Shown here in pieces: positions 17,574-45,940 of a stretch of 46,289 bases of DNA (the stretch's first letter is position 1; every line of letters begins with the position of its first letter). Both the position numbers and the translations under genes were made by a program. The stretch covers positions 1,186,836-1,233,124 of the forward strand of contig NZ_CVPE01000006.1 in the NCBI RefSeq assembly GCF_001049895.1, read 5' to 3'. Under the pieces are notes generated by a model that was not told the origin of the DNA, made no database searches, and worked only from the letters and a program-made list of their open reading frames with translations. The stretch comes from Rubeoparvulum massiliense (GTDB lineage Bacteria; Bacillota; Bacilli; Rubeoparvulales; Rubeoparvulaceae).

Positions 17574-18662
17574 TTATAAGAGCTGCTTACCCATGATTGA
17601 TAATTGATCATGCATACCTTGAATAAACTGATCCAATTGCGCTAAGTCAATTTGCTGCATGGCATCCGAGAGTGCCACATTGGGATCAGGATGAACCTCA
17701 ATCATCACGCCATCTGCACCAGCTGCAAGGGCAGCTTTAGCACATGGTAGTAAAATATCACGACGACCTGTAGCATGAGTCACATCCACCAGTACTGGCA
17801 GATGACTCTCTTGCTTAAGAAGCGGAACAGCAGAGATATCTAAGGTGTTCCGTGTCCACTTTTCATAGGTACGTATTCCCCGCTCACATAAAATCACACG
17901 ATGGTTGCCATTGCTTAAGATATATTCTGCAGCATAGAGTAGCTCTTCGATGGTGGCCGACATTCCCCGCTTTAAGAGAATGGGTACATCCACCTTACCA
18001 GCTACCTTTAAGAGCTCAAAATTCTGCATATTACGAGCACCAATCTGGATCATATCTAAGTATTGGGCTGCTTCCTCCATGTAGGCAGGATCCACTATTT
18101 CACTAATTACAGCAAGTCCATGCTTCTCTCCAGCAGCTTTTAACATTTTAATACCTGGAAAGCCTAGCCCCTGAAAATCATATGGTGAAGTTCGAGGCTT
18201 AAATGCACCACCTCGCATGGCATGAAGTCCATATCCTTGCAATGCCTTGGCAACGATCTCGAGCTGTTCGTCACTTTCCACGGAGCATGGTCCGGCGATT
18301 AATACAGGATTTTTACCACCGATGATTAGGTCCTTCACCTGAATGACCGTATCCTCTGCTTTTCGCTTACGGCTCACCAATAATTGCTTCTCACATTCCT
18401 CCTTTTGCAGATCAAGAGATGCCTTGAAAATCTCTTTAAAAATATGTTGAATGGTAGCATCACAGAATGGACCATGATTGGCTGCCTTTAATTTATTCAG
18501 CATCTCCCGCTCACGCGTAGGATCAAAGCGTTGAACACCTTGTCGTTGTTTAATCTGTCCAATCTGTTGGACGATGGTTGCACGCTGGTTTATTAAGTCA
18601 AGAATTTGAAGATTTAATTGATCCAACTCAGTTCTTAGATCTTCCAGCTCACGGTTGCTCAA
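17574..18662 (-). CDS. aroF: bifunctional chorismate mutase / DAHP synthase
   Basis: First enzyme of aromatic amino acid synthesis (condenses PEP and erythrose-4-phosphate) with an N-terminal AroQ-type chorismate mutase domain. Residues 1-85 are the mutase helices ([19 protein letters not shown], then [14 protein letters not shown]). Residues about 110-345 are the type I-beta DAHP synthase barrel with [19 protein letters not shown] and [14 protein letters not shown]. 362 aa is the expected length (B. subtilis AroA/AroG-type). The mutase domain serves as a prephenate/chorismate feedback sensor in this family. TTG start behind AAAGGG. It is first in the unit with ccpA; a palindrome lies just upstream (18765). 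Confidence 0.93.
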
Positions 18663-18764
18663 GTGCTCATCCCTTTCTACAATCGATATACATTTTTTTG
18701 AACTGCCATCCTAAAGTATTCCTAATGGTAATTATACCTTGTCCAGTACCTGATTTGAAGGTTG

Positions 18765-18784
18765 GATACCATCTGGATGGTATC
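18765..18784. promoter_or_regulatory. perfect 20-bp palindrome, candidate operator
   Basis: GATACCATC-tg-GATGGTATC, a perfect inverted repeat, stands between the divergent aroF and FtsA-like genes. A second smaller palindrome, GGTAATTATACC (18727-18738), overlaps the likely aroF -10 (TATAAT on the minus strand). Both share the half-site element GGTAT/ATACC. No T-tract follows, so an operator is more likely than a terminator. The protein that would bind it is unknown. Confidence 0.45.
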
Positions 18785-18877
18785 TGGAACTTTCTTCCTA
18801 ATTTTCTTTGATCTTGCTAGTCATTTTGCCTCTTCTTCTCTATAATCGAAGTAGTTGTATAAAAAGGAGCGAACAAA

Positions 18878-21007
18878 ATGGGTGATGAGAGAACCATTTT
18901 TGCCTTAGATATTGGGACACGTAGTGTAATGGGTATTATCGCTAAGCCTGCATCCGATGGAAACCTTTCTATCATCGATTGGGAGATTCGTGAGCATACC
19001 ACCCGCTCCATGCTAGATGGTCAGATCCATGATATAGAGGCTGTAGCCAACACGATTCTAGAGATAAAGAGCACCTTGGAGCAGCGGAACACCCCTCTCC
19101 ATCAGGTAGCTGTAGCCGCTGCAGGGAGGGCTTTACTTACTGAACGCGGTCAATTTACATTCCCCATGGATTCTCAGCAATATATTAGCAAGGAAGAGGT
19201 CCATCACTGTGAACTGGCAGCAGTTCAAGCTGCACAAACTACGCTCCACGAGGGAGCAAGCTTACAGCAGCAGTACTACTGTGTAGGCTATAGTATTTAT
19301 AATTATTACCTCGATGGCGAGAAAATCGGGAATCCCATCGATCAACGGGGTGAGAATTTAGGCGTGGAAGTGATCGCTACCTTCCTCCCTCAAGTGGTGG
19401 TGGACTCCCTGATGGCCGCCTTGAATAAAGCGGGTCTCCAATTACAAGCATTGACCCTAGAGCCTATCGCTGCCATCGAAGCGATCATCCCCTCGACTAT
19501 GCGGCGTTTAAACGTTGCCCTCGTCGATATTGGTGCAGGTACCTCCGATATTGCCATCACCGCAGAGGGAACGATCACAGCCTATGGAATGGTCCCTGCA
19601 GCAGGTGATGAAATTACCGATGCCATTAGCCAAGCTTATCTACTAGACTTCCCTGTAGCCGAGCAAGTGAAACGACAGTTGAATACTTCAGATCAGGTTT
19701 CTTATACCGATATACTGGGCTTCCAAACAGAATTAGCAAGTGCAGAGATCATCCAGACCATTAAAGGCGAGATTGAGAGCCTCGCCCAAGCTATTAGCAC
19801 GAAAATTACCGACTTAAATGGTAAGAATCCACAAGCTGTCATGCTTGTTGGTGGTGGTAGTCTCACCCCTCAGCTCGCAACCATGATTGCCCGTCATCTA
19901 CATATGCCAGAAAATCGTGTGGCCGTTCGAGATGCAAGTGCCATTGCTATGGTTAATCCAGAATTTGTTCAGGATAAAGGACCTGAATGGATCACACCGT
20001 TGGGGATTGTCACAACAGCCCTCCATCGGCCCCTCAGCTATGTTCAGGTTCAGGTGAATGATGAGATGACCCGGCTTTTTGAGCTCCGCCCACTAACGAT
20101 CAGCGATGCCTTATTGGCAGCAGGTATAAGCATGCGACAGCTTCATGGGCGTCCTGGTTTATCCATGCATGTAAGCGTGAACGGAAAAAGTCACTGGCTC
20201 CGCGGAACGCATGGAGAGCCACCTACCATCCTGCTCAATGGTCAGCATACTTCGCTCTCTTCAGCCATTCAAACAGGGGATACAATTACCATCACCCCTG
20301 GTCAAGATGGCAAGGATGGCGGTGGCACCATTAGGGATCTTCCTCTCTCATCGACATCGCTTCACTTTGAGATCAATGGTGAAGCTCAACTCATTACGCC
20401 ACGTATTCGCTGTAATGGCAAGCTCGTCACCGTAGATGAAGAACTTCATGATGGTGATCAGATCAACGATGATATACCACACACCATTGAGGAGCTTCAC
20501 GCCTGGTTGGGTACACAACAGCCTATCCTCCGTTTCAAATGTAATGGACGCTGGATGGAGCATACCATAGGTGGCTATGAGATTGAGGTGAATGGTCTCA
20601 TTGCCGATGGGAAGACGACAATACAAGCAGGCGATCGAATCCGCTTGCTTCCCAAGGAAGGTACCAACCCCACCCTTCTCCAATATGCACCTGAGCATTG
20701 GCAAGAAAACTTAACCATAGCGGTCTCCTATAATGGACAACCTGTGAAAGTTGACAACCTTCAATATTGGGTGGAACGAAATGGAGAGGTAGCCCAATGG
20801 GACGAACTCATTCAAGCAGGCGATCAACTGATTTATCGTGAGGATGAGGAGCGTTCCCCGGTTTTTAGTGACGTCTTCCGCTATGTGGATGTTCAATTGG
20901 AACCGCCTGGTGGCTTGACAAGACTCTGTCTCAGGGTGGATGGCGAAGAAGCCAATTTCCAAACACCCATTCACGCTGGAAGTGCATTGGAATTATATTG
21001 GGAATAA
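18878..21007 (+). CDS. FtsA/PilM-type actin-fold ATPase with repeat-rich C-terminus
   Basis: The 709-residue protein has an N-terminal actin-like ATPase of the FtsA/PilM/Hsp70 superfamily (about 1-370): phosphate-1 loop ALDIGTRSVMGII (9-21), phosphate-2 VDIGAGTSDIAI (about 216-227) and the adenosine loop MLVGGGSLTP (about 325-334), with HQVAVAAAGRALLTERG as in FtsA's 1C region. There is no membrane-targeting amphipathic tail as in true FtsA. Instead, about 330 residues carry several copies of the pattern NG-x(8-14)-(I/L)xxGDxI, resembling ThiS/MoaD-type beta-grasp units. It stands alone between terminators, with its own -10 (TATAAT 18841). It is not the division FtsA gene: no ftsZ follows. 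Function unknown; an actin-like scaffold is an inference. Confidence 0.75.
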   Translation: MGDERTIFALDIGTRSVMGIIAKPASDGNLSIIDWEIREHTTRSMLDGQIHDIEAVANTILEIKSTLEQRNTPLHQVAVAAAGRALLTERGQFTFPMDSQQYISKEEVHHCELAAVQAAQTTLHEGASLQQQYYCVGYSIYNYYLDGEKIGNPIDQRGENLGVEVIATFLPQVVVDSLMAALNKAGLQLQALTLEPIAAIEAIIPSTMRRLNVALVDIGAGTSDIAITAEGTITAYGMVPAAGDEITDAISQAYLLDFPVAEQVKRQLNTSDQVSYTDILGFQTELASAEIIQTIKGEIESLAQAISTKITDLNGKNPQAVMLVGGGSLTPQLATMIARHLHMPENRVAVRDASAIAMVNPEFVQDKGPEWITPLGIVTTALHRPLSYVQVQVNDEMTRLFELRPLTISDALLAAGISMRQLHGRPGLSMHVSVNGKSHWLRGTHGEPPTILLNGQHTSLSSAIQTGDTITITPGQDGKDGGGTIRDLPLSSTSLHFEINGEAQLITPRIRCNGKLVTVDEELHDGDQINDDIPHTIEELHAWLGTQQPILRFKCNGRWMEHTIGGYEIEVNGLIADGKTTIQAGDRIRLLPKEGTNPTLLQYAPEHWQENLTIAVSYNGQPVKVDNLQYWVERNGEVAQWDELIQAGDQLIYREDEERSPVFSDVFRYVDVQLEPPGGLTRLCLRVDGEEANFQTPIHAGSALELYWE

Positions 21008-21029: not shown

Positions 21030-21081
21030 AGGTTAAGGTTCAGGTGGCTTTTTAACTCCAGTTGAACCTTAACCTATTTTT
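21030..21081 (+). terminator. intrinsic terminator of the FtsA-like gene
   Basis: A perfect 13-base stem AGGTTAAGGTTCA / TGAACCTTAACCT is followed by ATTTTT. Confidence 0.9.
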
Positions 21082-21634: not shown

Positions 21635-21686
21635 CCTTATCCATGTTAAGCATGTCTTCATCGACCATAACATGGATAGGGATTTT
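21635..21686 (+). terminator. intrinsic terminator
   Basis: CCTTATCCATGTTA pairs with TAACATGGATAGGG and is followed by ATTTTTA; 15 bases after the small membrane protein gene. Confidence 0.75.
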
Positions 21687-21720
21687 TATAATGAAAAGTC
21701 GTTTAGAAGGAGGCTTCTTG

Positions 21721-22158
21721 GTGAAAAAGAAAAGTGTTATCCTTACTTTGATACTTATATTATTTGGAATGGGCATTTTTTTAGTTAATTGGATGCAATA
21801 CACAACCTACGGAGCAGGGATGGCAAATCTGTTTAGTGAAGGGGAAATCATTGATGAAATCATCATAGAAAATCGCTTTGAAAATTACGGGTTTAAGCTC
21901 GAAGATGATGAAGAAATTAAGAAATTCATCGCGGTTCCTTCCAATATGAGATTGAAGCGTGATCAAAATCAAAGGATGGAGTATGACATTTTCATCCGGA
22001 CGAACAAAAAATCATACCTCCTTGCCCTCGGAAAGGATGGTATACAAATCGACCGTAATTATAAAATCATCGGCGACAATATACTCTTCCAATTAATCGA
22101 GAACTGGGACATGGAGTATGAACATATTGATCTACGTACAAATGAAGTGATTCAGTGA
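21721..22158 (+). CDS. membrane-anchored hypothetical protein
   Basis: 145 residues: a basic start (MKKKS), one hydrophobic segment (about 6-26), then a soluble, acidic extracytoplasmic domain of about 115 residues with alternating strands. The GTG at 21721 is chosen because GGAGG lies 7 bases upstream; the frame is open back to 21643, but that part lies in the terminator hairpin. No lipobox cysteine follows the hydrophobic segment, so it is an anchor or signal peptide. Function unknown. Confidence 0.6.
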   Translation: MKKKSVILTLILILFGMGIFLVNWMQYTTYGAGMANLFSEGEIIDEIIIENRFENYGFKLEDDEEIKKFIAVPSNMRLKRDQNQRMEYDIFIRTNKKSYLLALGKDGIQIDRNYKIIGDNILFQLIENWDMEYEHIDLRTNEVIQ

Positions 22159-35304: not shown

Positions 35305-35600
35305 AAAAAAACCCCGTCTCCTTGCAGAGACGAGGTATAGCTCGCGGTACCACTCTACTGAACACCCTAATTCTCGATACGTTCTCCCGAAATGGAAAAC
35401 TCGAATGAAGATGAACACTTACAGGATAACGGCCTGAGCCGGTATGGCTTACACAATGTCTCCATCTTCTGCCATACATTTCAAGGGTGCGCTTCACCTT
35501 GGACCAATAACAGGCTCTCACCATCCCTGTCTCGCTAAGCACTGGTGTAAAGGCTACTCTCCCTCTCATCAATGATCCTTTTACTTCATGATTGTAATAG
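35305..35600 (-). promoter_or_regulatory. T-box riboswitch, arginine-specific
   Basis: Leader of the argS-exonuclease operon. On the minus strand: GAGAGTAG with the AGTA box near 35550, the apical GGGATGGTGAGAGCC (35515-35529), the specifier CGC at 35489-35491 in GTGAAG-CGC-ACCCTTGAA (an Arg codon), the CCGTTATCC element near 35428, the T-box proper AGAGTGGTACCGCG (35343-35356), and a terminator at 35309-35339 followed by TTTTTT. Each element lines up with the tyrosine T-box at 2485, which gives mutual support. Uncharged tRNA-Arg reading CGC is expected to raise expression. Confidence 0.92.
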
Positions 35601-45822: not shown

Positions 45823-45940
45823 TGCCTGGCAACGACCTACTCTCCCAGGACCCTGCGGTCCAAGTACCCTCGGCGTGAGAAGGCTTAACGGTCGTGTTCG
45901 GGATGGGAACGCGTGTGACCCTTCTGCAATCATCACCAGA
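45823..45940 (-). rRNA. rrf: 5S ribosomal RNA
   Basis: About 118 bases with the 5S core CCCATCCCGAACACGACCGTTAAG, read on the minus strand, and the closing helix between TCTGG at the 5' end and CCAGG at the 3' end. The exact ends are placed by this pairing and may be off by one or two bases. Confidence 0.95.

Follow-up and report, generated by a model that had tools for sequence, protein, structure and literature searches.

A third branch of FtsA/PilM-type ATPases

The gene at 18878..21007 on the forward strand of the window (the whole stretch of 46,289 nucleotides from Rubeoparvulum massiliense that we analyzed) encodes a 709-amino-acid member of a single-copy protein family that makes up a third branch, next to FtsA and PilM, among actin-fold ATPases of this type. 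In place of the flexible linker and membrane-binding helix of FtsA, these proteins carry a rod built from 3 to 5 beta-grasp units of the ThiS/TGS kind. We are nearly certain of this identity as a family of ATPase heads joined to beta-grasp arrays, and our confidence in the mechanism proposed below is about even. The open reading frame (ATG start, stop codon included in the coordinates) is an intact gene: it follows a Shine-Dalgarno sequence, AAAGGAG, at about 18863-18869, and over 100 other genomes keep its frame at full length, with 30% to 48% identity.

A tree built from 41 members of the family, 21 FtsA proteins (divergent ones included), and 20 PilM proteins sets the family apart from FtsA and PilM as a clade of its own (support 100/99), with the branch order of the three groups only weakly fixed (81/60). 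The protein matches FtsA (PF14450; 46.9 bits, cut-off 31.8), PilM_2 (PF11104; 46.8 bits, cut-off 27), and ThiS (PF02597; 41.3 bits, cut-off 22.5) above the Pfam gathering scores, and no NCBIfam model attains its own cut-off (ftsA TIGR01174, 123 of 175.85 bits; pilM TIGR01175, 81.7 of 133 bits). Public databases file family members as FtsA or PilM, and the family is without a name of its own; RefSeq, for instance, labels the Anoxybacillus amylolyticus orthologue “pilM: pilus assembly protein PilM”. That orthologue lies on a 258 kb plasmid (NZ_CP015439.1, 133647-135785). A literature search of open-licence papers found none on this family, and a survey of the beta-grasp fold mentions neither FtsA nor PilM (PMC1949818).

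We found the family in 64 of the 151 genomes sampled from the class and in 112 of the 199 from the phylum, with one copy per genome in nearly every case. A conserved ATPase kept in single copy by about half of the sampled Bacillota genomes, under a division or pilus name that it has not earned, is a blind spot in the phylum's cell biology. Among GTDB contigs, an alignment query recovered at least 592 loci (a single protein query, 0). The sequence-only reading of this DNA had called the combination unusual, which did not hold, given how common it is in Bacillota; the search for the domain arrangement across the phylum that it had proposed did find a conserved orthologous group, and no match to a known characterized family with another explanation appeared. 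Viral contigs gave 0 matches, and eight “phage” records match the family. The one that we examined (MT835512.1, H3/L174, “Bacteriophage sp.” from human feces) was rejected as a phage, since the gene sits there among polA, coaE, and other housekeeping genes as on a bacterial contig. The order in this record is polA, coaE, the ATPase gene (its start overlapping the end of coaE), and a metallo-beta-lactamase-fold gene.

The ATPase head and its relation to FtsA and PilM

Profiles, predicted structure, and alignment place an FtsA/PilM-type actin-fold ATPase head at residues 1-382 (18878..20023, forward strand), with the motifs DIGTRSV (phosphate 1), DIGAGTSDIAI (phosphate 2), and GGGSLTP (adenosine). 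Across the family, these motifs and a large part of subdomain 1C hardly vary, and the head is therefore expected to bind ATP. Subdomain 1C, assigned by secondary structure and by alignment with FtsA and PilM to about residues 84-167 (19127..19378, forward strand), corresponds to the partner-peptide site of these two proteins. AlphaFold2 modeled the head from 62 orthologues with a pLDDT of 90.5, and fold comparison aligned residues 4-384 with FtsA (7q6i; Z 34.1, 362 residues, 2.7 Å) and the head with PilM (2ych; Z 30.7), with EutJ and MreB scoring lower. Together with the Pfam matches, this bears out the earlier assignment of the protein to the FtsA/PilM type.

Like FtsA, the family thus has a head of actin fold that includes subdomain 1C and the ATP motifs, and this head is structurally closest to FtsA and scores better against the FtsA than the PilM NCBIfam profile. 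One could accordingly imagine a second FtsA that takes part in the Z ring, binds to FtsZ or to proteins of the divisome, and modulates septation, with the beta-grasp arm replacing membrane attachment. We consider this rather unlikely. Unlike FtsA, the family stays below the curated FtsA score, forms a separate clade, and is not found beside ftsZ, which is also absent next to the family gene in 20 distant loci. The PR motif of FtsA subdomain 2B matters for FtsZ binding, and our alignment shows that this motif, conserved in FtsA, is absent from the family. The FtsA-style C-terminal amphipathic helix, present in all 17 FtsA tails compared, is absent as well; the arm begins in the alignment exactly where the linker and membrane helix of FtsA start.

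The distribution of the two proteins points the same way. In 39 of the 199 phylum genomes the family is present with no FtsA above the curated cut-off, as a second FtsA might lead one to expect, but there is no complementarity: 73 genomes have both, another 39 have FtsA only, and 48 have neither above cut-off. These counts do not support the family as a substitute for FtsA; most often it occurs alongside a true FtsA, and some of the seemingly FtsA-less genomes carry divergent FtsA genes. Separately, we observed a well-supported group of divergent FtsA-like proteins of about 420 amino acids that fall below the FtsA cut-off (L169, L171, L172, and L173) and whose host genomes mostly lack canonical FtsA.

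The head also resembles PilM in its fold, its PilM_2 match above gathering score, and its solubility, and the RefSeq label mentioned above makes the same connection. A cytoplasmic clamp that, like PilM with PilN, grips an N-terminal peptide and serves a membrane machine of pilus or secretion type would fit these features, and PilM genes co-occur with the family beyond chance (80 genomes with both). We nevertheless hold this to be improbable: 32 of the 112 carriers, including the genome of the window itself, lack any PilM match at 1e-25, and among the seven Bacilli genomes of the phylum sample PilM was matched in none. Furthermore, the family differs from PilM in its separate clade, its score below the curated PilM cut-off, the absence of adjoining pilus genes, and an arm that is not found in PilM.

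The beta-grasp arm

The arm consists of five units in the protein studied here. Unit 1 (residues 383-476; 20024..20305, forward strand) contains hairpin 0, helix 1, an inserted hairpin 1, and strands 3-5, and 62 of the 64 residues of a TGS domain (3hvz) superpose on it at 1.9 Å (Z 7.3). The following repeats on the same strand each comprise a helix, a hairpin, and an NG...GD block: repeat 2 with hairpin 2 (residues 481-534; 20318..20479) and repeat 4 with hairpin 4 (residues 598-657; 20669..20848), both recognized by model and profile comparison, and between them repeat 3 with hairpin 3 (residues 535-594; 20480..20659), on which the Pfam ThiS match is centered and which profile comparison also supports. 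The terminal repeat 5 (residues 659-709; 20852..21004) has no inserted hairpin and is better conserved than repeats 2 to 4. The motif [ND]G..[ILV]..G[DS].[ILV] occurs past residue 382 exactly once per unit (at 454, 513, 572, 635, and 688), and in 20,000 shuffles of this region it was found 0.04 times on average and three times at most, with no shuffle reaching five.

AlphaFold2 predicted the array alone with a pLDDT of 94.9. Fold comparison covered unit 1, which superposes on SAMP1 (Z 7.8), TGS, MoaD, ThiS, and multi-ubiquitin domains (Z 6-8), and nearly all top rows were ubiquitin-like or related beta-grasp proteins. Units 2 to 5 were assigned by profile comparison, in which hhalign found units 1 to 4 homologous with a probability of 96% to 98% and unit 5 less clearly so (68% to 90%). 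Among the arms of 62 members, ThiS matches in 55, Ub-Mut7C in 37, and TGS in 30, and the SAMP2 profile matches too. The sequence-only reading had noticed the NG...GD pattern at least five times and likened it to repeated beta-grasp units; both observations stood, with five homologous units of beta-grasp type in the C terminus, unit 1 confirmed by fold comparison and the other four by profile comparison with it. The best sensible Foldseek matches of the array were the bacterial multi-ubiquitin proteins 9cd2 and 9d5b (E 5.6e-4 and 1.2e-2), which likewise have tandem ubiquitin-like domains but no ATPase head and another gene context, so that the likeness is one of tandem fold only.

The superposition of unit 1 and the profile matches to ThiS, Ub-Mut7C, and SAMP2 could also be taken to indicate a covalent ubiquitin-like or sulfur-carrier protein. 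Yet none of the 62 members ends in GG, and no ThiF- or E1-like gene was recognized among conserved neighbors, which makes this reading highly improbable. Compared to ThiS, MoaD, and TGS proteins (PF02597, PF02824), the units of this family are moreover arranged in tandem, fused to an ATPase, and equipped with an extra hairpin in all but the last.

This extra hairpin lies between the helix and strand 3 of each repeat, giving the order hairpin 0, helix 1, hairpin 1, block 1, helix 2, hairpin 2, block 2, helix 3, hairpin 3, block 3, helix 4, hairpin 4, block 4, helix 5, block 5, with “block” standing for strand 3-NG-...-GD-strand 5; a beta-grasp fold is made of hairpin, helix, and block. The 62 residues of unit 1 matched to the TGS domain span model positions 6 to 95, so hairpin 1 fits only as an insertion into a fold of hairpin 0, helix 1, and block 1, and the last unit, having no hairpin of its own, needs hairpin 4. 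Assigning hairpin k to unit k+1 is the simplest reading and would leave neighboring units interlocked. The order and number of elements therefore suggest that the beta1-beta2 hairpin of each unit k+1 sits inside unit k, which, if real, would be an unusual route to a stiff rod from ubiquitin-like folds.

Other members can be read in the same way. By eye, we counted five units in Bacilli and four (L125, L128, L134, and L138) or three (L124, L127, and L135) in more distant members, and within each member there are as many hairpins as helices and as many helices as NG-GD blocks, regardless of whether it has three, four, or five units. Wherever an internal unit has no inserted hairpin, it is followed by a linker and then by a new unit in which hairpin, helix, and block are contiguous (L124, L127, L128, L134, L135, and L138; also by eye). 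Mean-field coevolution, run as single and pooled analyses on few sequences, leaned towards interlocking but gave no clean ladder: of 165 couplings each with strand 5 of unit k, 5 exceeded z 2 for hairpin k-1 and 2 for hairpin k.

Proposed function

Conservation decreases from the head (entropy 1.14 to 1.40 bits) through unit 1, which is nearly equal to it (1.66 bits), and unit 5 (2.05 bits) to the variable units 2 to 4 (2.52 to 2.66 bits). A conserved first unit, a next-conserved last unit, and a variable middle are what one would expect of a lever coupled to the head, a distal dock, and a spacer, respectively, and we therefore favor an ATP-switched adaptor or peptide-binding scaffold with a modular arm, a reading to which we give an even chance. 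The head would bind ATP and capture a short cytoplasmic partner peptide through subdomain 1C, assemble head to head, or both. Unit 1, which continues straight from the final helix of the head and almost equals the head in conservation, would relay the nucleotide state to the arm; the middle units may serve as a spacer of variable length, and the conserved last unit might dock a second partner. If the head does switch the arm, this would show the FtsA/PilM fold working without membrane helix or pilus. Neither the Bacilli loci nor 20 distant loci hold a conserved gene neighbor pointing to a partner.

More tentatively, the family may be a third class of FtsA/PilM ATPase that acts as a nucleotide-switched and possibly polymerizing scaffold, in which an interlocked beta-grasp arm of 3 to 5 links, each domain lending its first hairpin to its neighbor, would form a molecular ruler. 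To a role in sporulation, for example as a paralogue of FtsA acting at the polar septum or in engulfment, we give little credence. SpoIVA is present in all 64 carriers among Bacilli, where none of 37 SpoIVA-less genomes has the family, and in 107 of the 112 carriers of the phylum sample. However, four Kurthia species without SpoIVA keep the family, which is therefore no sporulation factor in the strict sense, and there are five more SpoIVA-less genomes with the family elsewhere in the phylum. Despite the enrichment, a strict tie of the family to sporulation was thus rejected. Many spore-formers lack the family, the association with SpoIVA is confounded by ancestry, and given the SpoIVA-less carriers the enrichment reflects either lineage or a role that is useful, but not confined, to spore-formers. 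The ATP-switched adaptor remains the reading that we favor.

Genomic context

In Bacilli, aroA is the divergent neighbor at 76 of 80 loci and ccpA is nearby at 73 of 80, and 52 to 65 of the 80 have convergent downstream genes that, from our own reading of their sequences, we take to be ytxJ, ytxH, ytxG, and murC. This aroA/ccpA synteny carries no functional information. Among the 20 distant loci, no neighbor context is common to more than six, nor was any ftsZ or pilus gene recognized. In the window, aroA (DAHP synthase/chorismate mutase; 17574..18662, reverse strand) serves as a locus marker outside the system, and other genes take the place of the common Bacilli ones on the 3' side.

The gene had been described as standing alone between terminators, without ftsZ or pilus genes. 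There are indeed none of these near it, and a strong intrinsic terminator follows its 3' end (21030..21080, forward strand; a 14-pair stem and then CTATTTTTG, fold z -5.0), but on the 5' side the gene and aroA share a divergent promoter region instead. A candidate sigma-70-like promoter, TAGTCA-17-TATAAT (18818..18846, forward strand), was recognized there by its match to the consensus, in a region where promoter-like matches are hardly above expectation (19 versus 14.1 in shuffles). The same divergent region holds a near-perfect palindrome, GGATACCAT-ctgg-ATGGTATC, at 18762-18787, which could be an operator. The ATPase gene is separated from two ABC exporter genes by a 171-amino-acid open reading frame (21643-22158) that probably has a signal or membrane segment and matches no family above curated cut-off. 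Elsewhere in the window, two T-box leaders and a 5S rRNA are located on the reverse strand at 2501-2723, 35323-35578, and 45824-45940.
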